From the NCBI RefSeq assembly GCF_011044495.1, contig NZ_CP049143.1, forward strand, positions 372,001-436,000: 64,000 nucleotides of DNA, written 5' to 3'. Shown here in pieces: positions 7,905 to 36,872 of this stretch (its first letter is position 1; each line of letters begins with the position of its first letter). The notes under the pieces were generated by a model, which saw only the letters and a program-made list of their open reading frames with translations, made no database searches and was not told the DNA's origin. The position numbers and the translations under genes are program-made. The DNA comes from Roseimicrobium sp. ORNL1. Lineage in GTDB: Bacteria; Verrucomicrobiota; Verrucomicrobiia; Verrucomicrobiales; Verrucomicrobiaceae.

Positions 7905-7944
7905 ATGACTTTTGGCGGTGTCATCGTAGTGCTGTCAATTGTTG

Positions 7945-9145: not shown

Positions 9146-10183
9146 TTACTTGGTCGCTATCATGAACCCGCGATCCGCTGCGGTATCCAGATATGCACCC
9201 GGCTTGAACCCTGCCTCGCTGCACAGGTCCGCATACTCCTGCACGGAGTAGCATTTACCCTGCGTGGAGTGCATCAGCAGTGAGGAATACTCCGCCACCG
9301 GGAGAGGACCGGTCTTGTCGGCATTGATGAAGGCATCATGGATGATGAGCAATCCACCCGCAGGCAGCGCCTTGTAGGAGATGGCGAGAAGCTCCTTCAC
9401 CTCGGTGGTGCCCCAGTCGTGCAGCACGTTGGAGAAGAGGTGCACATCGCAATCGGCGGGCAGCGCATCCTTGAACATGTTCCCCGTAGCCACGGAGACG
9501 CGATCATGGAAGCCGCGCTCATCGATGCAGCGTTGGGCGATGCGATCCACCGGAGCCTGATCGAGCACGGTCGCTTGCAGATGCGGATGATGCGCGCAGA
9601 AGGAGCACGCGTAGATGCCGCTGCCACCACCGATATCCAGCAACCTCTTGCGCCCGGTGAGATCCACTTTCTTTGCCATCGCCTGCGCGAGGTAGATGCC
9701 GCGGCAGTCCATGGCTGCGGTGAAGCTGCGGGAGAACTCATCCGTCTCCATGGCCTTGTGCCAGTCCAGTGCTGCCTTGTCCCCGCCCCAGTTGGCGGGC
9801 TTGTCGGTCTTCAGCACCTGAAGGTAGTCCTTCACAATGGGCCTGTCCTTCAGGGACGCATAGTAGGGCTTCAGATTCCACGGCGAGTCACTCGTGAGGT
9901 GTTCCACCGCCGTGGGCGTGGCGTGATAAGTGCCCTCTCGATTCTCCACGAAGCCATTCGCCGCGCAGAGGGTGAGCAGCACATCCAGCGGGCGCTCCGT
10001 GAAGCCGAAGTGCGCAGCGATGCCATCTTTCGTGGACGGGTTCGCGTGCAGCCATGTGAAGAAGTCCAGATGCACCACCGCGGTGGTGATGAAGTCAGCG
10101 GCATACAGCCCGTCGCGATAGCGATAGGCGCGGATGGGATCCGTGGAGGGAACGGCGGTGAGGTCTAGCGGCATGCCTCGCAT
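9146..10183 (-). CDS. SAM-dependent O-methyltransferase (plant-type/acetylserotonin family)
   Basis: 345 residues if started at the ATG at 10183; the ATG at 10174 is an equally good alternative. A longer in-frame reading to 10456 overlaps recJ by over 200 bp and its N-terminus is low-complexity, so it is rejected. An N-terminal winged-helix dimerisation domain (about 15-95) is followed by the SAM motif LLDIGGGSGIYA and LDQAPV. The catalytic His lies in NVLHDWG, as in plant-type small-molecule O-methyltransferases. It follows recJ by 47 bp on the same strand. Acceptor unknown. Confidence 0.85.
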   Translation of the reverse strand: MRGMPLDLTAVPSTDPIRAYRYRDGLYAADFITTAVVHLDFFTWLHANPSTKDGIAAHFGFTERPLDVLLTLCAANGFVENREGTYHATPTAVEHLTSDSPWNLKPYYASLKDRPIVKDYLQVLKTDKPANWGGDKAALDWHKAMETDEFSRSFTAAMDCRGIYLAQAMAKKVDLTGRKRLLDIGGGSGIYACSFCAHHPHLQATVLDQAPVDRIAQRCIDERGFHDRVSVATGNMFKDALPADCDVHLFSNVLHDWGTTEVKELLAISYKALPAGGLLIIHDAFINADKTGPLPVAEYSSLLMHSTQGKCYSVQEYADLCSEAGFKPGAYLDTAADRGFMIATK

Positions 10184-10230
10184 GGAAGCGCGAAGTTGCC
10201 CGGAGGAAAGCGGGAAGTACGTGCCTGCCG

Positions 10231-11949: not shown

Positions 11950-11997
11950 CTAAAGGGACGTGACAGCGTGAAACTCAATTTGCACGGATGCTAGCGG

Positions 11998-12020
11998 ACC
12001 CATGGGCGTCGTCCATGGGT
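11998..12020. promoter_or_regulatory. Hairpin in the recJ-hemL divergent intergenic region
   Basis: A perfect 8-bp inverted repeat, ACCCATGG and CCATGGGT, flanks a 7-nt loop GCGTCGT and is followed on the plus strand by TTTTGTCT. It looks like a short intrinsic terminator reading towards hemL, but the genes diverge, so no transcript needs ending here. A leader attenuator for hemL or a protein-binding dyad are alternatives. The rest of the 216-bp gap holds nothing else recognisable. Confidence 0.35.
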
Positions 12021-12165
12021 TTTGTCTCGGAGGGATGCGATTGTGATATTTTGACGACGATGGAGGAAATGTGGCCCTGCCTGCCGAGGTGTGGACGTCG
12101 TTTGAGGCGCTGAGTCTGCTGATGCCTCCACTTGTAGCCCGCCGACTTGTCGCTAATCATGAGGC

Positions 12166-13452
12166 ATGTCCAACGGCCCGCTTTCCACCAGCCTCTTCGC
12201 CCTCGCCAAGAAATACATCCCCGGCGGGGTGAACTCCCCCGTACGCGCGTTCCGCAACGTCGGCGGCGAGCCGTTCTTCGTGCGCCGCGCCAAGGGCTGC
12301 CGCATCTGGGACGTGGATGGCAAGGAGCTCATCGACTACGTGGGCACTTGGGGCCCGGCCATTCTGGGCCATGCACCGCTGCCGGTCATTGAAGCCATCC
12401 ACAACGCGGCTAAGGACGGTGTGAGCTTCGGCATTCCCAATCCCTACGAAGTGGAGATGGCCAAGCTCATCTGCGAGTGGGTGCCCAGCGTGGAGAAGGT
12501 GCGCATGGTGAACAGCGGCACGGAGGCCACCATGAGTTGCATCCGCCTCGCACGTGGCTTCACCGGGCGCGACCGCATTGTAAAGTTCGACGGTTGCTAT
12601 CACGGTCATTCTGATGGCTTGCTTGTCGCCGCAGGCAGTGGCGCTCTCACGCATGGCCGCCCGGACAGCGCCGGTGTGCCTGCCGCTTATGCCGACCTCA
12701 CCACCGTGCTGCCGTACAATGATGTGGCCGCGCTGGAAGAGTGCTTCGATAAGATGGGCCACGAAATCGCCGGCGTCATCGTGGAGAGCTATCCTGCCAA
12801 TGCCGGTCTCATCCTGCCGCAGCCCGGCTACCTGGCGAAGCTACGCGAGATCACGCAGAAGCACGGCGCTGTGCTCATCTTCGATGAAGTGATGACCGGC
12901 TTCCGCGTTGCCAAGGGCGGCGTGCAGGAACTCGAGAACTACTCACCGGACCTCACCGCCATGGGCAAGGTCATCGGCGGCGGCATGCCCGTGGGTGCCT
13001 TCGGTGGTCGTGCGGACATCATGGACATGCTCGCTCCGGAAGGTCCCGTGTATCAGGCCGGAACCCTGAGTGGCAATCCCGTGGCCATGGCTGCCGGTCT
13101 CGCCCAGCTCCGCGAAATGGAAAAGCAGCAGGGCTGGAAGCGACTCGATGAACTCGGTGCCATCATGGAGGAAGCCGTGCTCGACACGCTGAAGCAGACG
13201 GGCCGCAACTACCAGTGGTACCGCGTCGGCAGCATGTTCTGCCTCTTCTTCACCGAGACCCCCGTCCGCAACCTCACCGACGCCAAGACGAGCGACCTCG
13301 CCTCCTTCCGCAAGTTCTTCCACTACTGCCTCGACAAGGGCGTGTACTTCGCGCCTTCCCAGTTCGAGACCGGTTTCATCAGCACCGCGCATGCGCCGGA
13401 AGATCTGGCGCGCACGGCGGAGGTGGTGAGGGAGGCGTTGTTGGCGCTGTAG
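12166..13452 (+). CDS. hemL: Glutamate-1-semialdehyde 2,1-aminomutase
   Basis: 428 residues, typical for the enzyme. A class III PLP enzyme with the hallmark N-terminal [11 protein letters not shown], the PLP pocket [25 protein letters not shown], and the PLP lysine K268 in [33 protein letters not shown] is diagnostic of the aminomutase as opposed to ordinary class III aminotransferases. It converts glutamate-1-semialdehyde to 5-aminolevulinate, the C5 route to haem. Divergent from recJ. Confidence 0.97.
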
Positions 13453-24294: not shown

Positions 24295-25905
24295 CTATTT
24301 CTGTGTCGCAGACTTCACGTACAGCGCACTGAAGCGGATGTCTTTCCGTTTGGCTCCTTCGAAGACTACACGGACGCGAATGCGCTCAGGAAGGTCCGAG
24401 ATGCCAGCCTTGTCTGCCCAAGAGATGGGAGTCTGGAAACCGCTCTGGCGCACGACGACCACATTCTTGCCGGAGTACTTTTCCAGCGGCCGCATTTGTG
24501 CATCCAGTAGTTCCACCCGCAGTCCTGCTTCCTCGCTGAGGCCCTCTGCGTTCACAAAGAACTCGTGAGGCACTCCTGCCTTGATGGATACGGATGCGGT
24601 GATGAATTCACTCTGAACCTCGGGAAGCTGATAGTCTCCCGGGCCTTGGCCTGCGTCTTCAAACACCAGGTCACCGAAGCGATCACGCGGCAGCAGCGCG
24701 AGGCCCACGCCGCCGCGCGGGGGCTCCTCCTCCCAGTGACGCGGGTCCCACGTGCCGTAGTACACATAGGTCTGCTCGCCCACGTTCTCGAACCCTTGTC
24801 CCTGAATCAGTCCGCCCTGGTCCCACGCGCCATCTTCGCCTCGCTTCAGAAAGGTCCACTCATGGGCAGGCTCGCGGAAGGCCACGCCATCATTGCTCAC
24901 GGCGAAGCCGAGGTCGATGGTCACATCCTTCCATTCCTTGGCCCCATGCCAGATGCCGAAGATGCCCAGCAGCACGTTGCCGCGATTCCACACGCTGATA
25001 CCCTCGTGCACCTGCTCTCCCTCGCGGCTGCGTCCGGCACCGAGCAGGGTATGCTGCTGCAGGCGGACAAGACTGATGGCGCTGGTCTGTGACCAATTTT
25101 TGAAATCAGGGGACTGGTACACCCGCGCGACACGGCCGTGATAGGGTCGCGCGGCATCCATGGAGTTCTGGCCCGAGGCGAAGAACATGCCGTCCCACTT
25201 GTACAGGCCACCGCTGGGCTCGAAGTGAATCTTGGGCAGAACGAGCGCGTCCTCCGGCAGTTCCGCCTTGGTGGACTTCACTGGCTTCTCCATCTTCCAA
25301 GTCAGGCCATCCGCGCTCACAAAAGGTGCCAGTGTGCCCAGGCGCCGCTCCTGCCGGAAATACACGTGCGAGGATATCTTATAGCGTCTTGCTGGATCGG
25401 GATCTTCATCATCCTTGAGCACCTTCACATTTACAAAGCCCAGTGGGTAAGGATCCGTGGAGATGATGTTGTTGTCCTTGTTCCCACGAAACTCCACGAG
25501 CCCGAGATTCGGCTTCACCCACTTCACGCCATCATCGCTCTCCGCATAGGCGGCACGCCAGCGAGCGGAGGCAACCTTGTTCTCCTTGTCATCGTCGAAG
25601 GCCACATACCACAGGCGGAACTTCCCGTTCTCGCGAATCACTGATCCATAGAACTGCACCCCGCGAGCATCCGGAGTTCCAGGCGCACCACGTGGCACCA
25701 CCGGATTTGCCGGATGTTTGGTGGGAGTCCGCATCTCCACCCGCAGATTCTGGATGTGCGGAATGGAGACACTGTCGAACGCGAAGATGGTCGTGGCCCT
25801 GGTCTCATCGAAATACTCCGCGGCGTGGGTTGCATTGATGAAGGCTATCGTGCAGACGACGGCCAGGGCTCCCTGACGGCACATTGAAGGGAAGGTCATG
25901 ATCAT
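24295..25905 (-). CDS. Exported glycosidase-like beta-propeller protein (paralogue of 29602-31044)
   Basis: 536 residues with a signal peptide (cleavage near THAAEYF). The body has propeller-like motifs typical of GH32/GH43-like proteins: FRLWYVAFD, YAESDDGVKWVKPNLGLVEF, SADGLTWK, KNWSQTSA and WDPRHW. Residues about 415-535 form a C-terminal beta-sandwich. Its NLGLVEFRGNKDNNII segment closely matches KLGLVEFDGSKENNII in the protein encoded at 29602-31044, so the two are paralogues. No catalytic triad can be assigned from sequence alone. The start codon overlaps the acyltransferase stop (ATGA). Last gene of the locus starting at 31044 or 32278. Confidence 0.7.
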   Translation of the reverse strand: MIMTFPSMCRQGALAVVCTIAFINATHAAEYFDETRATTIFAFDSVSIPHIQNLRVEMRTPTKHPANPVVPRGAPGTPDARGVQFYGSVIRENGKFRLWYVAFDDDKENKVASARWRAAYAESDDGVKWVKPNLGLVEFRGNKDNNIISTDPYPLGFVNVKVLKDDEDPDPARRYKISSHVYFRQERRLGTLAPFVSADGLTWKMEKPVKSTKAELPEDALVLPKIHFEPSGGLYKWDGMFFASGQNSMDAARPYHGRVARVYQSPDFKNWSQTSAISLVRLQQHTLLGAGRSREGEQVHEGISVWNRGNVLLGIFGIWHGAKEWKDVTIDLGFAVSNDGVAFREPAHEWTFLKRGEDGAWDQGGLIQGQGFENVGEQTYVYYGTWDPRHWEEEPPRGGVGLALLPRDRFGDLVFEDAGQGPGDYQLPEVQSEFITASVSIKAGVPHEFFVNAEGLSEEAGLRVELLDAQMRPLEKYSGKNVVVVRQSGFQTPISWADKAGISDLPERIRVRVVFEGAKRKDIRFSALYVKSATQK

Positions 25906-26576
25906 GGTGGCGGGAAGGATTCGCTTTTCCAGGTGTCGTCGTGATGTGAGCCAAAGAGATCGGTCTGTGGCAGAAGCAGCTCGGGCAGGTTCCCTTTGCC
26001 CATACCTTCTGGAAGCGGTTGGTGACGCGCCGGGACTCCCACAGCCAGCGTGTATGGCGGCACGTCCTTGTTCACCACTGCTCCTGCCGCGATGAATGAA
26101 CCGCGGCCGATGGTGATTCCTGGGCAGATGGTGACACCTCCTCCAATGGTCACATGATCCTCAATGTGCGCACCCTCCACCGGCGCTGCGCGACGCATGG
26201 GCAGCCGGTCGTTCAAAAAAGTGGTGCCTGGTCCGATGAATACCATGTTTCCAATCACGGTGGTGCTGGGAAGATAGACATGCGCCATGATCTTCACCCC
26301 GTCGCCAATGCGTAGGCGACCTTCCAGCGTGCACTTGTGATGGACGACACATCGATGACCGATGGTGATCTCTGCCCGGATCAATACCTGATGTCCACAC
26401 TGGAAGCGGTCACCTATGGTGGTATTGGCATAGATGATGGAACCTGAGCGGATGATCGCGTGGTCTCCAATTCGGGTGGGCGCGGAATCACCGGGGTAGC
26501 GGTATCCCAGCACCACTCCCGGATCCACCTGGGCATGCGCGCCCAGCACGTAGTAGGCATCAGCGGGAGGCTCCAT
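25902..26576 (-). CDS. Left-handed beta-helix (hexapeptide repeat) N-acyltransferase
   Basis: 224 residues from the ATG at 26576, which overlaps the ceramidase-like gene by 17 bp; a longer in-frame start at 26678 adds non-conserved sequence. Hexapeptide repeats cover about residues 30-185 (IGDHAIIRSGSIIYANTTIG, IGNMVFIGPG, VTIGGGVTICPGITIGRGSFI), ending with the typical VVNKDVPPYTLAVGVPAR. The loop GTTFLNDRLP resembles the TNDKYP loop of sugar N-acetyltransferases that modify UDP- or dTDP-amino sugars with acetyl-CoA. Overlaps at both ends indicate translational coupling with the neighbours. Substrate unknown; an O-acetyltransferase is possible. Confidence 0.85.
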   Translation of the reverse strand: MEPPADAYYVLGAHAQVDPGVVLGYRYPGDSAPTRIGDHAIIRSGSIIYANTTIGDRFQCGHQVLIRAEITIGHRCVVHHKCTLEGRLRIGDGVKIMAHVYLPSTTVIGNMVFIGPGTTFLNDRLPMRRAAPVEGAHIEDHVTIGGGVTICPGITIGRGSFIAAGAVVNKDVPPYTLAVGVPARHQPLPEGMGKGNLPELLLPQTDLFGSHHDDTWKSESFPPP

Positions 26577-28164
26577 CCTTGGCGAAGCGGTTGAGGATTT
26601 CCACGCCCTTGATGGCAAGCACGTCGCCAGCGGGCTTTTGATAAGGAGCGCGAAAACGGCTGTAGCGATAGTGAGCACTCATGTATTCGCCGTCACCGGT
26701 GTTGGGACCATCGGTGAGATAGCCGTAGGACACATTGGTATAGCCGCAGGGAATGGTGAGCGGCAGCGTGGAACCTGCCCGCATCTGCCGGCCAATGCCC
26801 TGGAACGGCTCGAAGGGCATGCCGACAATCCCCACATCTCCGATGCGAATGGCACACAGCTCCACTTCAAGGTGCTGCGCGACGCTGTCGGCCTTGCCGA
26901 GTTGGTGCATCTCCAGCGCCCAGCGGCTCCAGGGCAGGACACCTTCGATCAACTTGCCACGGTACACGGGTGAGAGTTCCCTTGGGAAATTCAAGCCGGC
27001 GCAGCCCAGTGTGTTTTCATCGCCCGCATTGGCGCGCTTGATGAAGTCTTCCATCTCGGTGATTTCGGCCCTGAGTGTTTCTTGTGAAGGCAGGGGGCCG
27101 AGGGGAATCTTCACCTTTGCCACTTCATAGTTGAACCCGTCGCGTGAGGATGGCTGTATCTTCTCCAGCGCCTTCACGTAACTCTCACCCAGCATTCTTC
27201 CGTACTTGGTGGAAAGCTCGACACTGCCGCGGAACATTCCTTTGGAATTCACATCACCCGCGCAGCCCTGAAGGAAACTCACCGGCACTGGATTCGCGGG
27301 AGCGAGATGTGCCGCCACTACATCGCCAGCCACCTGGGGCCAGTCACCGAAGACGATGGGCTTTTCCGGATGATAGCAGGTGCAGGGATGCCCGGTGAAC
27401 TGCACCAGGGCCGTCACCACCTGTCCTTGCTCGTTCTTCAGCACCACGATGGGCGCCTGGCGATCAATGTCTCCATTGTAGTCCACACCCACGAGGTCGC
27501 GATCTTTTTCACGCATCAGATAGGCGGTCCCATCCGCGCGCCGCCCTTTGCGGTTGTAGGTGATGCGTCCTTCGGATCCTTCCGCCCACCACACTGTGAC
27601 CGGTTGCAGCAGTGCGGGCAGACGTTTCGCGTGGTGGAGGAGTTGCTCCAGCAGTTCCTTTCCCGTGGGCAACAGCTCGGGTTCCGGGATCTCATTCGGG
27701 GACGTTGATAGCACTTCATAGGCTTCCGTCTGATTGGAGGCCATCTTCATGTCCGTGTGATTGTGCGAGACAAAGATCAGCACGCGGTCCGTGGGAAGGT
27801 TCAATTCCCTGGCAATCTCGCGGCGGAACATCGCACTGACGTTCACGGCCTTTGGTGAGTTGAAGTGGGTTGTCACCAGGCACAGCTGTTCACCACCGTC
27901 GTCGAGCAGTGTGATGGTGGATTTCAACGGGCCTGCCACATGCAGCACCACCGCGCCTGTCTTGCCCACGGTCGCTCCACCCGCGGCGGGAGTGATGCCA
28001 AACTCAAGCGCCGCCGCCTTGAGCCTGGGCTTTGCTACGGGCCCGGTGGACCATAACGGAGAGGACATCATCACCAGCAGTATTGATGAAAAGCAAACGA
28101 GGCGACGGCGTAGCAGCGAGACCGCGTGGGCCTTTGCAGGGGAAAGACAGGAGGGCGCGTGCAT
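26560..28164 (-). CDS. Neutral/alkaline ceramidase-like exported hydrolase
   Basis: 534 residues. N-terminal hydrophobic signal (residues about 19-40) after a basic stretch, so exported or membrane-anchored. Motifs follow the neutral ceramidase N-terminal domain: AALEFGITPAAGG, a beta-strand region with an alcohol-binding-like DDGGEQLCLVTTHF, the metal-ligand-like FVSHNHTD, FTGHPCTCYHP and FLQGCAGDVN. In true ceramidases these regions hold the zinc histidines of an amidase that cleaves N-acyl-sphingosine. Members of this family in PVC bacteria are uncharacterised and may act on other amides. Overlaps the acyltransferase gene and lies 76 bp after the MFS transporter gene. Confidence 0.62.
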   Translation of the reverse strand: MHAPSCLSPAKAHAVSLLRRRLVCFSSILLVMMSSPLWSTGPVAKPRLKAAALEFGITPAAGGATVGKTGAVVLHVAGPLKSTITLLDDGGEQLCLVTTHFNSPKAVNVSAMFRREIARELNLPTDRVLIFVSHNHTDMKMASNQTEAYEVLSTSPNEIPEPELLPTGKELLEQLLHHAKRLPALLQPVTVWWAEGSEGRITYNRKGRRADGTAYLMREKDRDLVGVDYNGDIDRQAPIVVLKNEQGQVVTALVQFTGHPCTCYHPEKPIVFGDWPQVAGDVVAAHLAPANPVPVSFLQGCAGDVNSKGMFRGSVELSTKYGRMLGESYVKALEKIQPSSRDGFNYEVAKVKIPLGPLPSQETLRAEITEMEDFIKRANAGDENTLGCAGLNFPRELSPVYRGKLIEGVLPWSRWALEMHQLGKADSVAQHLEVELCAIRIGDVGIVGMPFEPFQGIGRQMRAGSTLPLTIPCGYTNVSYGYLTDGPNTGDGEYMSAHYRYSRFRAPYQKPAGDVLAIKGVEILNRFAKDGASR

Positions 28165-28240
28165 GAGAAGGAATCAAACTCGTAGCGGTGGCTGCCAGAC
28201 CGAGGTGCATACGACAGGCAATGGTGAATCCTTCATGGCA

Positions 28241-29593
28241 TCATCCACGTGGCGTGTGTTTCCCCTGATCACCCACACGCACGGCGAAGACCAGAAGCGC
28301 CGTCATGGCAGCGGATGCCGCGAGCACGAGCAGGCCCGCGGTATAACCTGTAGTTTCCTCCTTTAGCCAGCCCATGCCATACGGACCGGCAAAGCTGCCG
28401 AGATTCCCCACGGCATTGATCAAACCTATGGCGGCGGCATTCGCAGTACCAGCCAGGAAGCTCGTCGCATACGCCCAGAAGCTGGAGGTGTAGCCCATGA
28501 GTCCAATCACGGCGATACAGAGGCAGAAGATGGCCAGCGGGAGATAGCCCTGCGATGCCGCGAGCGCTGCCAAACCGAGGCTGCCTACGCCCATGAGCGC
28601 AATGGTGTGCCAGCGACGTTCCCCCGTGCGGTCAGATGACCATCCGGCCACAATCTTTGCCACCACACCCAGAGAGTAGGGGAGGGAGACGAGCAGCGAC
28701 ACCTCCATGTTTGAGAAGCCAGACATCGATTTGATCATCTTGGGCAGCCAGTAGCCGAGACCGTTGGAGGCGATGAGCCCAAAGAAATAGGCAGCGCAGA
28801 AGAGGAGGACCTGGGGATTCTTCAAGGCCTGCGTGATGGATGTCGCGTGCTGCTTGCCTTCCAACTCACGTGCTGCTCGTTCCCTCTCCAGTTCATCCAC
28901 CAGCCATGCCTTTTCATCAGGAGGCAGCCACTTCGCTTGCTCCGGTCGCTCTGTCAGAAAGAACCAGGTGGTGAACCCCAGCACAATCGCAGGTATCCCT
29001 TCGAGGATGAAGAGCCACCGCCAGCCTTCCATGCCAAGCCACTGAAGCTTCAGCAGCGCGCCCGAAATGGGGCCGCCAATCACCATGGCCAGCGAGATGG
29101 CGGACATGAACAGCGCCACCGCCTTCGCCCGGTCCGCGCCACGGAACCAATGGCCCAGATACACGATGATGGCTGGGAAGAAGCCCGCCTCAGCGGCGCC
29201 GATAAGAAAGCGCAGCCAGTAAAACTGCTGCGCATTCTGAATGAAACCCATGGCCACCGCGAAGATGCCCCACGTCAGCATGATGCGGCAGATCCATTTT
29301 CGCACACCCCACCGGACGGCGATCACGGCGCCCGGCACCTCCAGAAGGAAGTAGCCAATGAAGAAGATCCCCGCCCCCAGCCCATACGTCTTGTCCGTAA
29401 AGCCGAGGTCTGCCGTCATCTCCAGCGCGGCATAGCTCACATTTACCCGGTCCAGATAGGCGATGACATACAGAAGAATCAGATAAGGCATGAGCCGCCA
29501 CATCACCCGCTTCCGGACTCGTGAGCTGATGTCGGGGTCAGTGGCAGTCACGATGTTGTTGGTTGCGGAGGGTAACTGCTGGGCGTTGTCCAA
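28241..29593 (-). CDS. MFS transporter, anion:cation symporter (ACS) family
   Basis: 450 residues with about 12 membrane helices. The first-helix motif YLDRVNVSYAALEM and GIFFIGYFLLEVPG are the signature of the anion:cation symporter family, which imports organic anions such as hexuronates, glucarate, galactonate and tartrate with protons. The start used here is TTG at 29593, 8 bp from the stop of the preceding gene; GTG at 29551 is an alternative. Its placement inside the locus suggests it imports the substrate that the surrounding enzymes process, most likely a carboxylated sugar derivative. Confidence 0.9.
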   Translation of the reverse strand: MDNAQQLPSATNNIVTATDPDISSRVRKRVMWRLMPYLILLYVIAYLDRVNVSYAALEMTADLGFTDKTYGLGAGIFFIGYFLLEVPGAVIAVRWGVRKWICRIMLTWGIFAVAMGFIQNAQQFYWLRFLIGAAEAGFFPAIIVYLGHWFRGADRAKAVALFMSAISLAMVIGGPISGALLKLQWLGMEGWRWLFILEGIPAIVLGFTTWFFLTERPEQAKWLPPDEKAWLVDELERERAARELEGKQHATSITQALKNPQVLLFCAAYFFGLIASNGLGYWLPKMIKSMSGFSNMEVSLLVSLPYSLGVVAKIVAGWSSDRTGERRWHTIALMGVGSLGLAALAASQGYLPLAIFCLCIAVIGLMGYTSSFWAYATSFLAGTANAAAIGLINAVGNLGSFAGPYGMGWLKEETTGYTAGLLVLAASAAMTALLVFAVRVGDQGKHTPRG

Positions 29594-29601
29594 TAATCAA
29601 C

Positions 29602-31044
29602 TCACGGCACAAACTGGAGAGCGAAAAGGTCCGCTTGTCGGAGGACGAGTCGAAGGCGGATGGGCTTGCCTTGGAGTTCTGCGAGGGAGCCACCTTTCCA
29701 TGCGATGGTGTGATCGGTGAAGTCGCCGCGAATGGGAGTACAATCTTCCAGGGAAAATCCGGGAATCGCCTTGCCGTGGGCATCCTGCACCTCCACACGT
29801 GTGTCACCTTTGCTCACGATATTCAGGGAGAGTTTCTCCCCCACGAAGGTGAGCGGCTTGGTGATGAGTTCGCCGCCCTCCTGCGCCGAGGCGGAGACAA
29901 AACCGTCCACACGGAACGTGAAGCGGCGGATGCGGCTGCCCGGTCCCTTGTAGTAGGCTTCGGACGCGAAGACGGAGACTTCCTTGTCGTTGCCGGGCAA
30001 TTGCAGGATACCCAGTGTCATGTAGTTGCTGCGGTTCCCATCGCGATCCTTTGGCGCGGTGATGGGAATGAGCGGATCGGGCCATCGCTGGAAATTCACT
30101 CCGTCGCGGCTGGTCATGAGCACGGGCTCCACCTGGGAGAGCTTGGGCTGGTATCGTGTCGGGAATCCAAGCAGCAGGTGGGGAGCGCGTGCATAGGGCC
30201 GCACGGCATTGGTGTAGAGCTGTGCCACGGGTGCCTCGCCATATTGCAGGTCTGCCTGACTCTCCCAGTGCAGGAAGTCCTTTGAAGTCGCGGTACGGAT
30301 GGCGCGCACACCTTTGGGCTTCCAGCCCCGCTCATCCGTGTATCCTCCGGTAAAATAGCGCCAGTAGGCACGGTAGGCGCCAAGCACCGGATCGTAAAAG
30401 GCGGTGTTCTGTGAATCAAACGAGCCCGCGGTAATCACCGGCTCCTCCCGTATGCGTGTCCACCGGATGCCATCCGCAGACTGGTAGGCCTGGAGGCTGG
30501 GGCGCTTTTTACGCGTGCGTTCATCGCCGGTACTGGCCAGGGCCTTGTAGCGGGATTCGGGCGGGCAATTCGGACTGGTGTCCTTGAACGGAGAGAAGTT
30601 GGAGCAGCCCTCGCCCATCAGGATGATATTGTTCTCCTTGGAACCATCGAACTCCACCAATCCGAGTTTTGGTTTGGTCCACGTGATGCCATCGCGGCTC
30701 TCGGCATAGCAGGTGGTGAGCTCGTGGGCTGGTTTTCCTTCATCTCCGGCATGATGGGAGCCCCGATAGTAAACGCGATAAAGATCGCCGTCCTGGAACA
30801 ACGTGAAATAGCCGGACGTGTTCCCCTCCCACGGTGCGTCGCACACCAGAGCCACATCTTGGGCCTTCGGCTGGTGCATGCGCAGCTCGACTCCCTCCAT
30901 GGTGGCGATGACCTGCTTGTCTACCAGCAGCTCTCTTTTCGAGCCCATGTCGCAGGGCGCATCTGCGGCGTGAAGGATGCAGGGCAGCAGCACGAGAGGT
31001 GACAGCCAGTGAAGGTGCCTGATGTGTTTCCAGTCGGTTCGCAT
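29602..31044 (-). CDS. Exported glycosidase-like beta-propeller protein (paralogue of 24295-25905)
   Basis: 480 residues from the ATG at 31044, which gives a signal peptide (HWLSPLVLLPCILHAADA); the reading to 31113 adds a non-signal extension. Propeller-like strands: DLYRVYYRGSHHAG, YAESRDGITWTKPKLGLVEF, QSADGIRWTRI, YRAYWRYFTGG, TSKDFLHWES, DGVNFQRWPDP. A C-terminal beta-sandwich begins near residue 370. Shares the GLVEF-D-GSKENNII block with the protein at 24295-25905. It opens the run of co-directional genes, 85 bp after the regulator gene. Probably a periplasmic glycan-active or glycan-binding protein; activity not provable from sequence. Confidence 0.7.
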   Translation of the reverse strand: MRTDWKHIRHLHWLSPLVLLPCILHAADAPCDMGSKRELLVDKQVIATMEGVELRMHQPKAQDVALVCDAPWEGNTSGYFTLFQDGDLYRVYYRGSHHAGDEGKPAHELTTCYAESRDGITWTKPKLGLVEFDGSKENNIILMGEGCSNFSPFKDTSPNCPPESRYKALASTGDERTRKKRPSLQAYQSADGIRWTRIREEPVITAGSFDSQNTAFYDPVLGAYRAYWRYFTGGYTDERGWKPKGVRAIRTATSKDFLHWESQADLQYGEAPVAQLYTNAVRPYARAPHLLLGFPTRYQPKLSQVEPVLMTSRDGVNFQRWPDPLIPITAPKDRDGNRSNYMTLGILQLPGNDKEVSVFASEAYYKGPGSRIRRFTFRVDGFVSASAQEGGELITKPLTFVGEKLSLNIVSKGDTRVEVQDAHGKAIPGFSLEDCTPIRGDFTDHTIAWKGGSLAELQGKPIRLRLVLRQADLFALQFVP

Positions 31045-31129
31045 AGAGCGTGGCGGGTTAACAACGCCACAACAACGAAGTGCCAGCGGCAGATCCTTCG
31101 CCCGGTTTGGCACTCCAGCCTTGGTTCAT

Positions 31130-32278
31130 TCAACCAAGCGTCTCGTCTTCGATAAGCCGGGGCATCGTGCGGATGACACGTGATGCCAGCGTGCCGGTCT
31201 CTGCGAGTTCCCGCATGGCTTTGGCAGCGCGTCGCGCGAATTGTTCCGCATCCACCGTGTAGCGAGCCAAGGAGGGGCTGGCGTGCCAGAGGAAACTTTC
31301 ATCGTCGCGGGAGAGTACCACGGCATCCTGTGGCAGGCGGATACCACGACGCATGAGATGCATGGTGACCGTGAGTGCATGTACCGCGCGAGCCACCAGG
31401 TAGGCAGTAGGTCGGGGGCGGGACTTGAGTGCCTCGTCGAGCAGGGTGCACAGGTGGGCTTTGTTCCGGTGACGCAGTATCGTGAGCGTGGCACCGTCAT
31501 GTCCCTCCATGGACTCCCGCATGCCGCGTTCGCTGTCGAGGTCTCCTCCGGTACTGCTCACGGGAAGCACCATCGCGAGGTGACGATGACCTCTGCGGAG
31601 TAGAAGTGTTCCCGCGTGGCGGCAGACGGCCCGGTAGTCGGCATCGATGGACGGAAGAGGGATCTCCTCAGGGCAGGTGCCAAGCACCAGACAGGGGATG
31701 GAGGTCTTGAGGAACCACTTCTGCATGGGCGCACTGGAGCTCATGAGCAGCCATGCAGACGCGGGAACTTTGCGCATGAGCTTCTCCAGCGCTTTCGCGG
31801 GCGTCTTCGAGTAGCAGGCTGGGTCTACGACGAGTTCCATTCTCCAGCGGTTGTGCGCCAGTTGCTCCCGCAGGATGTCGATCACCAGCAGAGAAGCTGG
31901 AGGCATGGTCCTCAATGGAGCAAAGGCAATGGCTCCCACGACGCGTTCTCCTGTCTTGAGCGAGCTGCGTCCGGCTTTCTTTTTGATCACGCGCCTCCGA
32001 CGCTCGGCCACTTCGATCCATCCTTTGATCTGTAGTTCCTTCAGTGCGGCGCGGATGGTCGGGCGGCTGACTTGCAGTGCGGCGCAGAGGTCCCGCTCGC
32101 CGGGCAGGTGTGTCTTCCATCGTCCCGTCCGGATGCCATTGCACAAGCTGTTCACCGTCTGCGCCACCAGGGTGATGCGCCTTGGCAGGGGCAGGGGATC
32201 TGTGCTGCGCTGGTGTGACATCTGGTCAGGTGATGTGACCAAGAGCATGCGATTGGCCGCACTGCCGGGCAAGTTCAT
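31130..32278 (-). CDS. GntR-type winged-helix / LacI-type sensor transcriptional regulator
   Basis: 382 residues from the ATG at 32278, which has a plausible ribosome site (AAGGGTGA, 4-11 nt upstream); the ATG at 32221 is possible and would leave more room for promoters. A GntR-like winged helix spans about 35-100 (PGERDLCAALQVSRPTIRAALKELQIKGW), followed by a periplasmic-binding-protein-like sensor (about 110-375) as in LacI/GalR regulators. Such regulators in PVC bacteria respond to sugars. The gene is divergent from the amidohydrolase-aminotransferase gene (32 bp) and co-directional with the five genes downstream, so it probably controls both sides. Confidence 0.87.
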   Translation of the reverse strand: MNLPGSAANRMLLVTSPDQMSHQRSTDPLPLPRRITLVAQTVNSLCNGIRTGRWKTHLPGERDLCAALQVSRPTIRAALKELQIKGWIEVAERRRRVIKKKAGRSSLKTGERVVGAIAFAPLRTMPPASLLVIDILREQLAHNRWRMELVVDPACYSKTPAKALEKLMRKVPASAWLLMSSSAPMQKWFLKTSIPCLVLGTCPEEIPLPSIDADYRAVCRHAGTLLLRRGHRHLAMVLPVSSTGGDLDSERGMRESMEGHDGATLTILRHRNKAHLCTLLDEALKSRPRPTAYLVARAVHALTVTMHLMRRGIRLPQDAVVLSRDDESFLWHASPSLARYTVDAEQFARRAAKAMRELAETGTLASRVIRTMPRLIEDETLG

Positions 32279-32310
32279 ACTGTCACCCTTCGCGTTTTTC
32301 CAATCGTCCC

Positions 32311-34656
32311 ATGTCTTGGAAGCTTGTCACCGCACTTACCGATGCCGATCGCAGACTGCTCACGCGTGCGGTGGAGGGGTTTGTGCCTGAAAAGGTCTAT
32401 GACATCCACACGCACCTGTTCCACACCCGTCATTTCGCCGAAGGCAAGCGCCCGGTGTTTCTGGATGAGAATCGTGGTTATGGGCTGACCGATTTTAACG
32501 AAGCCTGCGCTCGCTGGCTGCCGTGGCGACAGGTGGAGGGGTTGTTCTTTGGTTATCCCTCTGTGGGGAATGACCGTGATGGAGAGAATGCATGGATGCA
32601 GGAGCAGGTTGCCCCAGTGGTGAAGAGCAGTAACAGCCGCGCCCTCGTCCTTGCCGCGCCGGATGACGATCCCGCAGCGGTGCGTCGTCTGCTCGAAGGC
32701 GGTGTTTTCGTTGGCATCAAGTGCTACCGGCTCTATGCGAACGTGGAAGACACCCGTCAGGCGACCATTGAGTCATTCACCCCGGAGTGGATGTGGCAGC
32801 TCTGCGATGAGTTTGAGGGTGTGCTGATGCTGCACATCATGAGGGATGATGGCATCACGGATCCACACAACATTGAAACGCTCCGCCGCTTGTGCCGCCG
32901 CTATCCCAAGTGTCGACTGGTGCTGGCGCATGTGGCGCGTTCCTTCAACTATCGCCACGCACGCGAGGGACTGCGGGCCATCGTGGATCTGGACAATGTG
33001 GTGGTGGATACCTCCGCTGTGACGCAGACGGGCGCGTTTCGCGCGGCGCTGGAAGTGTTGGGGCCACAGCGCGTCCTTTGGGGCAGTGACTACATGGTGA
33101 GCGAACTGCGCGGCGCCTGCTTCACACAGGGAGATGGCTTCACCTGGGTCTATGCGGATGATGCCGCGTCCAAGGACCTGACGGTGTTCGGTCACTACAC
33201 ACTGGTTGGCATCGAGTCGCTGCTGTGCTTGAGAGAAGCCTGTGAAGATACCGGCATGTCGGCTGGAGATATTCAAGACATCTTCCGGGATAACGCACTG
33301 CGACTGCTCGCTCCGCATCTGCCCCAGTCTTCGGCGCCTGCGGCGATCACCGGCCCACAGAAGTGGCAGGAAGCTCGCGAGAAGATTTCCTGTGGCACCG
33401 GCTTGATGTCGAAAAGGGCGGAGAGCTTCGATCCCATCAGCTGGCCTGCGTATTTCTCGCGGTGCTCCGGGCCCTACATCTGGGATTTGAATGGCCGCAG
33501 ACTCACCGACTTCACCGGCGGTGTGGGAGCCATCCTTCTTGGCCACAGTGATCCTGAGGTGAATGCCGCCGTGCATCGGCGGGTGAATCTCGGCACCTAT
33601 TGCACGCTCAATCCACCGGATGAAGTTGAACTGGCGGACGTGCTCCTGGAGCTTCATCCGTGGGCACAGCGCGTGCGCTACGCACGTGGCGGTGGGGAGG
33701 CGCTGTCCCTTGCGGTGCGTATCGCGCGTGCTGCCACCGGACGCAGTGGCGTGGCGTTTTGCGGTTATCACGGCTGGAGCGACTGGTATCTGGCCGCCAA
33801 TCTCGCCAGCAATTCCGCACTGGACGGCCATCTGATTCCCGGACTCGAGCCGCACGGCGTGCCACGTGAACTCGCGGGCACCTCGGTTCCCTTCAAGTAC
33901 AATGACCTCGGCGCGTTTGAATCCGCCATGGCTCAACTGGATGGGCGTCTCGCCGCCGTGGTCATGGAGCCTTTCCGTTCTGAACTGCCGCGCGATGGTT
34001 TTGTAGAAAAGGTCGCCGCAAAATGCCGTGCTGCAGGCGCGGTGTTTGTGGTGGACGAGGTGACCGCTGGTTGGCGCTTTGGCATGCCGGGAGGCAGCGC
34101 GAAGCTTGGCATCGAACCTGACCTTGCGGTCTATGCCAAGGCCACGAGCAATGGCATCCCCTGTGGCGCCGTGGTTGGTCGTGGCGCTGTCATGGACGCT
34201 GCCAATACCAGTTTCATCTCCAGCAGCTACTGGACAGATGGCATTGGCCCCGCGGCTGCGCTTGCTTGCATTCGCAAGATGCTGCGCACCGGCACACAGC
34301 CCTATGTGGAATCTCTGGGTGAGAAGTTGCACACCCTGTTGAGCGACCTTCGTGCGAGGCACCCCTCGCTGAAGCTCACCATTGGCAACCGCCCCTGCGC
34401 TCCCTCCCTGACCTTTGCCTTGGGTGAGGCGTCACTTCCCGCCAAGGCGCTGATGATTCGCAAGATGCTCGCGCGCGGTTTCCTGATGTCCAGCCAGCTC
34501 TATGTGATGCATGCGCACGACGAGACGCACGTCGCCGCCATGATTGAGGCATTGGATGAAGTGCTGGCTGAACTCTCCGCGCTGCATGACTCGGGCCGCC
34601 TCCTCACCGAGGCAGGTCGTGTGGCGCCCGCGCAAGGATTCACGCGTCTTGCTTGA
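32311..34656 (+). CDS. Amidohydrolase - class III aminotransferase fusion protein
   Basis: 781 residues. Residues about 25-345 are an amidohydrolase-2-type TIM barrel: DIHTHLFH (31-38) gives two metal-ligand histidines, H207 sits in LAHVARSF and D260 in WGSDYM. Residues about 375-765 are a glutamate-1-semialdehyde-aminomutase-like class III aminotransferase: FCGYHGWSDWY in the PLP pocket, cofactor Asp 582 in VVDEVTAG and the Schiff-base lysine K610 in YAKATSNGIP. No stop, frameshift or extra start occurs across the linker (about 346-374), so this is a true fusion. The YHGWSDWY form is common in aminotransferases of surface-sugar pathways. The pair could couple hydrolysis of one intermediate to transamination of the product. 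Divergent from the regulator gene. Confidence 0.85.
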   Translation: MSWKLVTALTDADRRLLTRAVEGFVPEKVYDIHTHLFHTRHFAEGKRPVFLDENRGYGLTDFNEACARWLPWRQVEGLFFGYPSVGNDRDGENAWMQEQVAPVVKSSNSRALVLAAPDDDPAAVRRLLEGGVFVGIKCYRLYANVEDTRQATIESFTPEWMWQLCDEFEGVLMLHIMRDDGITDPHNIETLRRLCRRYPKCRLVLAHVARSFNYRHAREGLRAIVDLDNVVVDTSAVTQTGAFRAALEVLGPQRVLWGSDYMVSELRGACFTQGDGFTWVYADDAASKDLTVFGHYTLVGIESLLCLREACEDTGMSAGDIQDIFRDNALRLLAPHLPQSSAPAAITGPQKWQEAREKISCGTGLMSKRAESFDPISWPAYFSRCSGPYIWDLNGRRLTDFTGGVGAILLGHSDPEVNAAVHRRVNLGTYCTLNPPDEVELADVLLELHPWAQRVRYARGGGEALSLAVRIARAATGRSGVAFCGYHGWSDWYLAANLASNSALDGHLIPGLEPHGVPRELAGTSVPFKYNDLGAFESAMAQLDGRLAAVVMEPFRSELPRDGFVEKVAAKCRAAGAVFVVDEVTAGWRFGMPGGSAKLGIEPDLAVYAKATSNGIPCGAVVGRGAVMDAANTSFISSSYWTDGIGPAAALACIRKMLRTGTQPYVESLGEKLHTLLSDLRARHPSLKLTIGNRPCAPSLTFALGEASLPAKALMIRKMLARGFLMSSQLYVMHAHDETHVAAMIEALDEVLAELSALHDSGRLLTEAGRVAPAQGFTRLA

Positions 34657-34671
34657 GACCTTCTCGTTTTC

Positions 34672-34689
34672 GCTCCTCTACTGAGGAGC
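34672..34689. terminator. Hairpin between convergent genes (possible bidirectional terminator)
   Basis: A perfect 7-bp stem GCTCCTC / GAGGAGC with loop TACT lies exactly where the fusion gene (plus strand) and the FecR/LamG gene (minus strand) converge; it includes the last codons of the latter. A T-rich TTTTC lies on the fusion-gene side, but no long U tract follows the stem in either direction, so efficiency is doubtful. Confidence 0.4.
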
Positions 34690-36294
34690 TTGATGCGTGC
34701 GCATCAGCGTATTGACCTCTTGATGCGACAGCGCCGCATCGAAGACGAACACTTCATCAAGGTCGCCCTTGAAGAATCGGGGGCCCGGGTCGCCTTTGCG
34801 TACGGGGTCAGGGAAGGCCACATTGCGACCCAGCCACACACCGTGGCCGGCGTTGAGTACGTCGGTGTTGATCTCCGTGCGTGTCTCGCGTGTGACGATC
34901 TCCGGTTTGCCGTCCACATAGAGCATCACGTTGGTGGCGATGGTCGCGCGGGAGCCGCCATACATCACCACCGCAATGTGGTGCCACTGGTTGTCTCGCA
35001 GATCAGTGGTGCCGATGATGCGGCCGTTGTCATACGTGCCGAGGCGCAGGCGTCCTACAGGTCCTTCGGTGGAGATGGTATTGGCCGAGAGCTGCCATGC
35101 GGTGGCGCCGGTGAGCGAGCCCCAGGAGATGATGCCGTGACCGGTCCAGGAATCCTTGTTCAGTTCCTTGGGCACGCGTACCCACAGCGCCACGGTGCGG
35201 GAGGCATTCCCACCAATGCCGGGGAAGGGCGATTCGGCGTACACCCCTTTGCCATCGAACGACAGCGCTTTGCCGGACACACCCTCGATGGACTGCGGCC
35301 CTTTGCCCGCTGTCGGTGCTTTGTCCGGATAGGCGAGTAGATCCAGCCGCGCCTGGCCGTCCACCCCGAGTTCCTTGCCTTTGTTGGGGGCGATGCCGCC
35401 GCTGATGTCATCGAAGCTCCAGTGAATGTAACCGGGCACACGGCCCGCAGAGACCGGCATGGCTGTTACAAAGGTGTTCGCATCCGCGTCGATACGTTCG
35501 ACGGAAGCACCATGCACACGCAGGCCTTCATTGTCGAAGAGCTTGGTGGTAGTGCCCACCTGCCTTGCAGTGACATCCACCACGCCGGCGAGCACGTGCA
35601 CTTCCATGGCCGCGCCCTGGATCATGTGCACACAGAATTCCGTGCCACGGTCCACCGCGGAGCCTTCGGTGGTCTCCACGGAGAACCCATGGGCCGAGGG
35701 CGGGCAGCGCACGGAAAGCCGGCCCTGGTGCAGATAGGCGTGCATCTCATCCTTCAGTTCCACGTCGAAGGGGCCCTCCAGCACCATGCGGGCGCCGCTG
35801 CCGAAGGCCAGTTCCACCAGACCCGCCTCCGCACGCAGGCGCGTGTTTTTTGCCAGGTCAGAGGTCTTCAGCGAGGAAGACTCGCCTGACCAGAGAATAC
35901 CTTCTGAGCGTGAGAGAGTCGCCGCCGGAGTGTGAACATGGTCCAGCCACCAGGCACCACCAGCCAGCATCAACACGACAGCGGCAGCAGCGGCCACCCA
36001 GCGCAGATGTTTCTGCCAGAGCCAGCGTCGAGCTTTCTCCGCGGAGCGCCAGGCTGCCTGGATGGAGACTGTGTCCGGCTGCTTCAGGCGCATGGCTACC
36101 TCACGAGCGGCGAACTGGCCGCTGGGATCGCTCAGCGCCAGCGGCAGGAGACGCTCCACTGTCAACACGCGCATCAGAGCCACGCGGGCTTCTTCGCTCT
36201 CACGGCAAAGGGCAAGCAGTTGCACCCCTTCCTCCACGGACAGGGTGCCTTCCGCAGCGCGGGCCGCGAGAGTCTGCCATTGCATCGTGTTCAT
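34678..36294 (-). CDS. FecR-domain membrane protein with C-terminal LamG domain (anti-sigma partner)
   Basis: 538 residues. An N-terminal cytoplasmic region (1-95) with a helical, zinc-free anti-sigma-like sequence is followed by one membrane segment (about 99-117, WVAAAAAVVLMLAGG), a FecR beta domain (about 130-275; LAFGSGARMVLEGPFDVEL, RGTEFCVHMIQGAAMEVHVLAG) and a laminin-G/concanavalin-like domain (about 290-530; ALWVRVPKEL, WHHIAVVMYGG, LYVDGKPE, LDEVFVFDAAL). The start overlaps the sigma gene stop (ATGA), so this is a coupled sigma/anti-sigma-type pair. The LamG domain may sense a glycan or surface ligand; unlike classical FecR systems no TonB receptor gene is adjacent. Confidence 0.87.
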   Translation of the reverse strand: MNTMQWQTLAARAAEGTLSVEEGVQLLALCRESEEARVALMRVLTVERLLPLALSDPSGQFAAREVAMRLKQPDTVSIQAAWRSAEKARRWLWQKHLRWVAAAAAVVLMLAGGAWWLDHVHTPAATLSRSEGILWSGESSSLKTSDLAKNTRLRAEAGLVELAFGSGARMVLEGPFDVELKDEMHAYLHQGRLSVRCPPSAHGFSVETTEGSAVDRGTEFCVHMIQGAAMEVHVLAGVVDVTARQVGTTTKLFDNEGLRVHGASVERIDADANTFVTAMPVSAGRVPGYIHWSFDDISGGIAPNKGKELGVDGQARLDLLAYPDKAPTAGKGPQSIEGVSGKALSFDGKGVYAESPFPGIGGNASRTVALWVRVPKELNKDSWTGHGIISWGSLTGATAWQLSANTISTEGPVGRLRLGTYDNGRIIGTTDLRDNQWHHIAVVMYGGSRATIATNVMLYVDGKPEIVTRETRTEINTDVLNAGHGVWLGRNVAFPDPVRKGDPGPRFFKGDLDEVFVFDAALSHQEVNTLMRTHQAPQ

Positions 36295-36872
36295 GAGGGA
36301 GTTGTGGTCGGGGGAGTTCCACGCAGAGTGGCCTCTACGCAGTCACCGATGACAACACGCAGGCGGTGCAGTTGCATGGATACAGCAGATGTTTTCCTTT
36401 GCAATCGTTGAGCAAGTTCGTCGAGGGACATTCCTTCCGAGTATCGTGCCTGCAGAAGCAGGCGTGAAGGCCCCTCCAGGTGTTCCAGACAGTCACGCAG
36501 CGCTTCGAGAGCGGCACTCTCGCGCTCGGCAGGCAGATGTGAGGGCAGGCCGCTGTCGATGAGCGTCTGTAGTTCCTCGTTCAACCCGATGGGAAGGGCG
36601 CGGAACTTGCGCCGATGGTTGGCCAGCAGGTTCATCGCGATTCCGCGCAGCCAGGGACCCATGGGACGGTCCGGGTCACAATCCGACAGCTTCCGAAACG
36701 CGGTCACGAATGCCTCCTGCGCCAGATCCTCGGCATCGTGAGAGTTCGACAGGCGAACAGCCAGGCATGCGCGCACGCCAGCGTGGTGCCGCTGCACCAG
36801 CGTCGCAAAGGCACTGATGTCTCCGTTCTGGGCGGCACGGATGAGGCGTGATTCTTCGTCAGCGGGGGACAC
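36291..36872 (-). CDS. ECF-type RNA polymerase sigma factor
   Basis: 193 residues from a GTG start. Sigma region 2 contains DAEDLAQEAFVTAFRKL, with the typical aromatic/acidic pattern; region 4 has LLLQARYSEGMSLDELAQRL...SAVSMQLHRLR, a helix-turn-helix for -35 recognition. Length is normal for the ECF group. It heads a two-gene operon with the FecR/LamG protein and diverges from the Verru_Chthon cassette across 257 bp, making that cassette a plausible target, though other targets elsewhere are likely too. No convincing -35/-10 pair was identified in the intergenic region. Confidence 0.92.
   Translation of the reverse strand: MSPADEESRLIRAAQNGDISAFATLVQRHHAGVRACLAVRLSNSHDAEDLAQEAFVTAFRKLSDCDPDRPMGPWLRGIAMNLLANHRRKFRALPIGLNEELQTLIDSGLPSHLPAERESAALEALRDCLEHLEGPSRLLLQARYSEGMSLDELAQRLQRKTSAVSMQLHRLRVVIGDCVEATLRGTPPTTTPS

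Follow-up and report, generated by a model that had tools for sequence, protein, structure and literature searches.

What does a protein that joins an amidohydrolase domain to an aminotransferase domain do, and do the genes packed beside it make up a pathway by themselves? Both questions are raised by positions 24295-34656 of a 64,000-nucleotide stretch (the window) of the Roseimicrobium sp. ORNL1 genome, a single contig of 7.96 Mb, in which a fusion gene of 781 codons on the (+) strand diverges from six genes on the (-) strand (Table 1). From sequence comparison we tentatively favour a reading, possible rather than probable, in which the fusion would be one enzyme of a catabolic pathway divided between two loci and acting on an exogenous amino sugar acid of the 3-deoxy-2-ulosonic type, for which a nonulosonic (sialic-acid-like) acid (NulO) is the likeliest candidate.

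The fusion protein

Both domains scored above their Pfam cut-offs: Amidohydro_2 (PF04909) at residues 61-333 (E 2.7e-17, 63.9 bits, cut-off 26.4) and Aminotran_3 (PF00202) at residues 381-685 (E 2.3e-35, 122.5 bits, cut-off 30.5). Residues H33, H35, H175, H207 and D260 of the amidohydrolase domain, which we take to be the metal ligands expected in the superfamily (HxH, two later His and one Asp), were invariant in the 64 rows of alignment A1 (the window plus 63 of 65 non-redundant rows; L055 and L096 omitted; a second alignment, A2, has 49 rows). The same was true of D582 and K610 of the aminotransferase domain, presumably the Asp and Lys that bind pyridoxal phosphate (PLP), judging from motif comparison by eye. 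Because these residues are invariant, both halves of the fusion look functional.

A frameshift or assembly artefact was rejected as the origin of the fusion, since 79 of 80 relatives show no stop in the matched stretch (L059 and L076, which end inside the gene, were omitted from this check). The lone exception is L115 (titled Lentisphaerae, 9986-12385), in which amidohydrolase and aminotransferase are two intact adjacent genes; its aminotransferase nests inside the fusion clade of the tree described below, an indication that the fusion was split later. Identity of the aminotransferase half with HemL, the glutamate-1-semialdehyde aminomutase, was also rejected: superfamily and fold are shared, but the fusion reached 163.8 bits with the HemL equivalog TIGR00713 (cut-off 527.3) and the tree separates the two. 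With PRK06209 (NF004856) it reached 191.6 bits against a cut-off of 486. Another class-III aminotransferase gene of the window, at 12166-13452, is HemL-like by eye and groups in the tree with another such row; the fusion is therefore probably dispensable for tetrapyrrole synthesis.

AlphaFold gave a confident two-domain model (mean pLDDT 88.6). A structure search with the whole protein returned the aminotransferase half only, and the amidohydrolase half was therefore modelled alone (pLDDT 93.5). The structures nearest to the aminotransferase half were FumI, HemL and D-phenylglycine aminotransferase (Z about 40-44), the best being the aminopentol aminotransferase FumI (Z 43.8, rmsd 2.0 over 401 residues, 27% identity), whose substrate is of the fumonisin type. 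Among the 50 rows listed for the amidohydrolase half, the nearest were COG3618 amidohydrolases (4do7), 2-pyrone-4,6-dicarboxylic acid hydrolase, IDCase, LigJ, LigY and ACMSD, which share the fold (Z 18.9-21.8) at 12-18% identity; unlike the fusion, none of these COG3618/Amidohydro_2 matches has a fused aminotransferase named in its title.

Distribution of the fusion

The fusion was found at full length in 19 of the 57 genomes searched, with that of strain ORNL1 counted; G007, which has an N-terminal fragment only (E 9.3e-33), was scored as fusion-less. In one scan of genome contigs, 201 of 203 candidate stretches encoded relatives of the fusion, and 80 loci were kept from these 201. The loci come from records titled Verrucomicrobia, Planctomycetes, Lentisphaerae and Arenibacter; taxon names throughout are record titles, which can be wrong for metagenome bins. 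Brevifollis gellanilyticus (L060) is a cultured bacterium among those with the fusion. For the analysis of neighbouring genes 98 loci were taken, 12 were dropped as contig copies and five had no called open reading frame (ORF) for the fusion (L058, L064, L067, L072 and L079), which left 81 loci and, with the window, 82. The searches of 89 loci cover all 86 non-duplicate loci, L178, L179 and the window. Many of these contigs are short, which bears on the absence of partner genes at these loci. Phage records gave weak class-III matches only (27-31%, 12 records).

Ancestry of the aminotransferase half

The aminotransferase half matched 43 of 72,556 plasmid records at E<=1e-30, and the two best matches, both of about 45% identity, sit in NulO clusters. 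In Halorussus aquaticus (L172) the neighbours of the aminotransferase are a CTP_transf_3 cytidylyltransferase and a Gfo/Idh protein, and the stretch also holds a gene of the NeuB family; the aminotransferase is 51-53% identical over about 440 aa to its six best-matching fusion aminotransferases. In Pseudosulfitobacter pseudonitzschiae (L173) it is fused to CTP_transf_3 and located between pseB/pseC and pseG/pseI. A maximum-likelihood tree joined 18 fusions, one split aminotransferase, L172 and L173 in one clade (support 100/99), separate from the HemL-type rows; a clade of just the fusions had weaker support (90/89). The two NulO-cluster enzymes stand beside, or are fused to, CMP-sugar genes, whereas the aminotransferase of the fusion is joined to an amidohydrolase in loci without CMP-sugar genes. 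A further NulO-like cluster member (L174) and a NeuB-linked gene of Methylomagnum (L213) fall outside this clade; hence either the class-III aminotransferases linked to NulOs have more than one origin, or the wider family is an old one.

A possibly related enzyme appears in the gene table for the Legionella pneumophila serogroup 6 O-antigen, where a 'glutamate-1-semialdehyde 2,1-aminomutase' is placed between PseG and an acylneuraminate cytidylyltransferase; as far as that table goes, the likeness to our aminotransferase is one of description and gene position (PMC3694923). A similar logic was seen on a plasmid of Haloprofundus salinisoli (L214), where genes for ABC transporters, two Gfo/Idh proteins and a Ceramidase_alk protein are found near a distantly related class-III aminotransferase (31%).

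Genes around the fusion

Partner families were obtained by automatic clustering of mechanical ORF calls, and one member of each of 14 clusters was scanned with Pfam. The labels SGNH and PL11 (both scanned, with no family found), PL18, Lam1080, FadR, HADH, PQQ and DUF1501 were given by eye. Cluster 3 contains HEAT-repeat proteins as well as SSS symporters; four members were removed by eye for the 82-locus SSS count and five for the control comparison.

The most frequent families at the 82 loci were propellers (30 loci), SDR (26), SSS symporters (24), HpcH aldolases (17), the Gfo/Idh family GfoA (13) and NanM-like kelch proteins (12), followed by PhyH (10), SGNH-like proteins (10), a second Amidohydro_2 family, AH2b (9), GntR/LacI regulators (7), ATC_hydrolase-like proteins (7) and GfoB (6). 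FadR-like regulators numbered six among the fusion loci, and a DHDPS-type cluster occurred at three. The gene directly upstream of the fusion on the same strand was a propeller at 15 of 82 loci, an SDR at seven and HpcH at five; directly downstream it was an SSS symporter at six and AH2b at five. Small proteins, mostly of 170-253 aa, also recur downstream of the fusion, often with kelch (L051, L052, L054, L055, L069, L080 and others), and one of them has a sub-threshold ATC_hydrolase match (PF14196, 23.5 bits, cut-off 28.1).

Twelve fusion loci were compared with 20 control stretches from the same genomes, the families being defined on fusion loci and own-locus members being excluded as queries. 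Propellers were found in 5/12 fusion loci vs 0/20 controls (uncorrected p 0.004), AH2b and SSS each in 4/12 vs 0/20 (uncorrected p 0.014) and SDR in 5/12 vs 2/20.

The two Gfo/Idh partner families lead to the same kind of cluster as the aminotransferase. The single plasmid match of GfoA (query from L102) at E<=1e-20 is the Halorussus NulO cluster that also holds the aminotransferase relative, and the best of three plasmid matches of GfoB (query from L068) is another Halorussus cluster, which includes neuB, neuC, an acylneuraminate cytidylyltransferase and an SDR. When the archaeal proteins were in turn used as queries, GfoA was matched at 11, GfoB at 7 and SDR at 32 of the 89 fusion loci; among the 20 controls the numbers were 0, 0 and 2. 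Since the best plasmid matches of the aminotransferase, GfoA and GfoB lie in NulO clusters, a substrate of the NulO type is suggested.

The HpcH aldolase scored best with GarL and HpaI, below the cut-offs of both (GarL E 1.3e-30, 106.8 bits vs 406.75). Aldolases of the GarL/HpaI type cleave 2-keto-3-deoxy acids, a class to which nonulosonic acids belong. The SDR was closest to gluconate 5-dehydrogenase models, below cut-off. The kelch protein exceeded the cut-off of PF24996 (NANM) both times it was scanned and was far under the NCBIfam cut-off for N-acetylneuraminate epimerase.

Eight queries for NeuB, PseI, PseG, NeuC and cytidylyltransferase found nothing at the 89 fusion loci and nothing in the 20 controls. 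Since the controls are empty too, this absence shows only that the fusion loci are not NulO biosynthesis islands; a place for the window in such an island was rejected on the same result and because a search of its own genome found no NeuB.

A second gene set at 7.02 Mb

Of these frequent partners, the genome of the window has the SDR, Gfo/Idh, HpcH, SSS and AH2b families elsewhere. One close GfoB homologue (73%) was found, at 7.02 Mb, and at 7.02-7.03 Mb GfoA, GfoB, HpcH and an SDR are followed by kelch, an ATC_hydrolase-like protein, an SSS symporter, a second SDR, AH2b and a third SDR. These proteins are 61-78% identical (kelch 38%, third SDR 53%) to neighbours of the fusion in relatives. 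Measured along the contig, the set is 6.6 Mb away from the window; on a circular chromosome the distance would be about 1.3 Mb. In a genome of the same genus (G001), GfoB, HpcH and AH2b share a contig with the fusion at a distance of about 160 kb.

Within the family (36 genomes; kinship ignored in all tests), GfoB and HpcH were present in 17/17 fusion-bearing vs 5/19 fusion-less genomes (Fisher p 3e-6) and AH2b in 17/17 vs 6/19. Within one genus, GfoB and HpcH were found in 10/10 fusion-bearing genomes vs 2/6 others (p 0.008). We propose that the two loci form one pathway because GfoB, HpcH and AH2b co-occur with the fusion in the family, adjoin it elsewhere and sit at 7.02-7.03 Mb here.

Just beyond the second set (about 7.032-7.038 Mb; L212 4377-9902) lie a protein nearest to BhcC 3-hydroxy-aspartate aldolase, below cut-off, and RraA-like, M81/MlrC and Rid-family proteins.

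The regulator and the divergent gap

The ORF of the regulator can open at 32278. An in-frame Met at 32221 is common to the same-genus relative (L117, from G001) and the palindrome lies upstream of it, so the true start is likely ATG 32221. The palindrome, between this position and the fusion start at 32311, is identical in 27 of 28 bases in the same relative, and TGGTCA-N7-TGACCA at 32223-32241 overlaps it. Its pattern, chosen after the site had been seen, gave one match in the window at <=3 mismatches and none in 100 shuffles. Control of both sides of the gap by the regulator is plausible from this arrangement. A sigma-70 scan gave 3 sites against 3.1 expected.

The other genes of the locus

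A preliminary description of this locus had counted eight genes; the ORF listing holds seven. Its account of their packing on one strand, divergent from the 781-aa protein, was borne out by the ORF listing and the profile scans, which also agree with its assignments for the regulator, permease, acyltransferase and fusion. In order along the minus strand the genes are separated by 16, 8 and 76 bases and then overlap by 17 bases at 26560-26576, provided that the hexapeptide protein opens at the in-frame ATG 26576, and by four at 25902-25905; both overlaps are real.

Table 1. Features between positions 24295 and 34656 of the window, with the matches on which each name is based
Feature	Position	Strand	Remarks
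Fusion of Amidohydro_2 and class-III aminotransferase, 781 aa	32311..34656	+	Amidohydrolase domain ~1-345, aminotransferase domain ~346-770
Operator-like palindrome TGTGACCAAGAGCATGCGATTGGCCGCA	32234..32261		Repeat search in the window and L117; sits in the divergent gap
Regulator, GntR helix-turn-helix with LacI-type Peripla_BP_3 sensor	31130..32278	-	PF00392 E 9.5e-11, PF13377 E 4e-17; likely true start ATG 32221
Propeller-like protein beta1 (GH32/GH130-like)	29602..31113	-	PF00251 E 0.0021, below cut-off; signal-peptide-like N-terminus by eye
MFS permease, anion:cation symporter type	28241..29593	-	PF07690 E 6.4e-53; TIGR00893 320.8 bits, cut-off 395
Ceramidase-like hydrolase with His-x-His motif; accessory	26560..28164	-	Signal peptide by eye; E 0.024 to neutral ceramidase 2zws
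Left-handed beta-helix (Hexapep) acyltransferase, QdtC-like	25902..26576	-	PF00132; ORF can open at GTG 26678
Propeller-like protein beta2	24295..25905	-	No Pfam at E<=0.01; weak NF052550 match; signal peptide by eye

That beta1 and beta2 are related propeller-like proteins was confirmed (a search of the own genome matched one with the other at E 4.9e-16), their matches to known families being weak. A profile of both types matched 1,2-beta-oligomannan phosphorylase (E 3.6e-08 over 68 profile positions), and the propellers thus weakly resemble glycan enzymes of the GH130/GH32 type. The ceramidase-like gene is real; its label is weak, with no Pfam family, the ceramidase family PF04734 included, at E<=0.01 and the match to the solved 2zws obtained with a four-sequence profile, in which His-x-His is common to all four aligned sequences. 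The gene occurs in 6 of the 57 genomes, five of them among the 19 that bear the fusion. The best solved match of the hexapeptide acyltransferase is QdtC (E 1.3e-25), and some of its relatives on plasmids have a DegT aminotransferase as neighbour. The earlier statement that most of the enzymes act on amide or amine bonds was too strong, given the weakly glycan-enzyme-like propellers and the pyrone hydrolases, decarboxylases, hydratase and LigY among the neighbours of the amidohydrolase half.

Conservation of the neighbours around the fusion, which the same description expected, holds in part. Five of the six minus-strand genes are present at the same-genus locus L117, where an SDR and an alpha/beta-hydrolase stand instead of beta1; at L057 one strand carries a propeller, an M14-type gene, the ceramidase-like gene, the hexapeptide gene, a propeller and the fusion; and in L113 a ceramidase-like gene lies near propellers and the fusion. 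Across the 82 loci, with the window counted, the ceramidase-like (4), MFS (4) and hexapeptide (3) families are rare.

Outside the locus, an M60-type peptidase (PF13402, E 2.5e-70) is followed by a gene of the N-acylglucosamine 2-epimerase (AGE) family (PF07221, E 5.1e-44) at 5679-9132. Peptidases of the M60 type cleave glycoproteins, and enzymes of the AGE family are found in the breakdown of sialic acids; the two genes may be related to the fusion locus. After the fusion and on the opposite strand, 34678-36872 encodes a FecR + LamG protein and then a 193-aa protein that is sigma-factor-like by eye; both genes are kept in G001, and distant relatives (23-25%) lie near the fusions of L091 and L092.

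Proposed pathway and alternatives

In the scheme that we favour, in which substrate, direction, each chemical step, secretion and regulation are proposed from the observed domains, conservation, synteny, co-occurrence and phylogeny, secreted propeller and hydrolase proteins would release or trim the sugar, and the MFS and SSS permeases would import it. The fusion would then strip the nitrogen substituent (amino, perhaps N-acyl). Its aminotransferase domain would convert C-NH2 to C=O on PLP, and its amidohydrolase domain might carry out a deacylation (amide opening), a lactone opening or other processing of the keto acid. Many Amidohydro_2 members catalyse reactions other than amide hydrolysis, and enzymes of the COG3618/ACMSD type often have carboxylate substrates in which a keto, enol or lactone group is close by. 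Gfo/Idh and SDR enzymes would adjust the carbonyl, the GarL/HpaI-like aldolase would cleave the 2-keto-3-deoxy acid to pyruvate and an aldehyde, and the GntR/LacI regulator would repress the divergent pair through the palindrome. A catabolic ulosonic route is suggested because the aldolase scores best with GarL/HpaI, importers are present and synthesis genes are absent; breakdown is the likelier direction because NulO-synthesis matches number 0/89 while SSS symporters (24/82), propellers (30/82) and GntR-type regulators occur nearby.

Several observations weigh against this scheme. The main doubt is the identity of the substrate: the best model for the MFS permease is the D-galactonate transporter TIGR00893, below cut-off, while the sialate symporter model gave 21.3 bits (cut-off 604); and the second GfoB plasmid match lies in a Spirosoma locus with nagA and glucosamine-6-phosphate deaminase, a catabolic setting of the GlcNAc type, which makes an ordinary amino sugar a possible substrate. 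None of the 15 listed HpcH plasmid matches (of 173 records) has a NulO gene named under it. Among the matches listed, the solved neighbours of the amidohydrolase domain are mostly decarboxylases, pyrone hydrolases and hydratases rather than amidases, which argues against assuming an amide as its substrate. No core partner or propeller was found near the fusion at 31 of the 82 loci, and in the small control comparison HpcH (2/12 vs 0/20) and GfoB (1/12 vs 1/20) stood out little, p<0.05 (uncorrected) being reached only by propellers, AH2b, SSS and the by-eye families Lam1080, PL11 and PL18. Two fusion-bearing genomes outside the family (G041 and G048) have no close GfoB, HpcH or AH2b. NeuB showed no significant link with the fusion (11/19 fusion-bearing vs 12/38 fusion-less genomes, p 0.09; within the family 10/17 vs 9/19, p 0.53; kinship ignored), which speaks neither for nor against NulO catabolism. 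Near the 7.02 Mb genes the palindrome had no match or chance-level matches only; the idea that it also marks these genes was therefore rejected, and control of the distant half by the regulator is not supported.

A rival reading has the same catabolic layout with an ordinary substrate, an amino-sugar acid or keto sugar acid derived from hexosamine, uronate or aldarate, the aminotransferase and the Gfo/SDR enzymes having been recruited from NulO-type families with a changed substrate. We regard this as a serious possibility, if again short of probable. It would fit the permease closest to D-galactonate transporters, the aldolase and the SDR, whose nearest models, GarL and gluconate 5-dehydrogenase, were both matched below cut-off, the GfoB relative in a GlcNAc-type locus and the structural nearness of the amidohydrolase domain to COG3618 amidohydrolases (Z 21.8). 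Against it, three separate families, those of the aminotransferase, GfoA and GfoB, all point to NulO clusters, and the kelch protein passes the NANM cut-off in both cases scanned, though far from the epimerase cut-off.

Quite unlikely, in our estimate, is the building direction, in which the aminotransferase would aminate a keto sugar and the QdtC-like acyltransferase would acylate the product for a surface glycan. The closest aminotransferase relatives do lie in biosynthetic clusters, and the match to QdtC and the DegT aminotransferases beside some plasmid relatives would suit it. The NeuB, PseI, NeuC, PseG and CMP-transferase queries, however, found nothing at 89 loci (nor in the controls), the acyltransferase is present at 3/82, and the frequent neighbours are permeases, GntR-type regulators, propellers and the aldolase. 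The re-acylation step of the preliminary description rests likewise on this one accessory gene.

Least likely is a closed pathway in which the seven adjacent genes alone would take an N-acyl amino-sugar acid through import, deacylation, transamination and re-acylation, as first proposed: the operon-like packing, the gene sets kept in L117, L057 and L113 and the haloarchaeal plasmid L214 would agree with it, but the ceramidase-like gene is in 5/19 fusion-bearing genomes, MFS and hexapeptide genes are at 4 and 3 of 82 loci, and the frequent partners lie elsewhere in the genome. What stands of the proposal is its catabolic-looking amino-sugar setting, with permease, transaminase and a regulator with its palindrome, and the partial conservation around the fusion.

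Relation to known systems and significance

The enzymes are of known kinds, and the fusion and the gene set appear undescribed in the open-access PMC literature searched. No description of an amidohydrolase-aminotransferase fusion was found in its full texts and nothing on 8-amino nonulosonic acid aminotransferases; among the matches listed, none described such a gene set for NulOs with accessory enzymes or for NulO catabolism, or the bacterial consumption of NulOs other than Neu5Ac.

Sialic acid catabolism of the nan type is described, in the part of the source that bears on it, with a NanA-NanE-NanK cluster (PMC2693436; part of a further source, PMC10570557, also concerns such catabolism). 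Compared with that account, the NanM-like kelch protein and the SSS-family importer are possible parallels, whereas the pathway proposed here would use an HpcH/HpaI aldolase and the fusion in place of NanA-NanE-NanK, genes that were not searched for in the genome of strain ORNL1.

Stated at its widest, the NulO reading would mean a previously undescribed route for the breakdown of NulO-like amino sugars in Verrucomicrobia, Planctomycetes, Lentisphaerae and Bacteroidota, in which the bifunctional fusion, two Gfo/Idh enzymes, SDRs and a GarL-type aldolase would replace NanA/NanE/NanK and the amination of NulO biosynthesis would run in reverse. In this full form, which is drawn from homology and gene neighbourhood, we consider it rather unlikely.

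NulOs other than Neu5Ac are found widely in the surface glycans of microbes. If the NulO reading is true, the locus would supply an enzyme and a gene set for asking how bacteria eat them. Whatever the substrate, several phyla have conserved this bifunctional enzyme, and since its probable pathway occupies two separate places in the genome, a study of the window alone would miss half of it.

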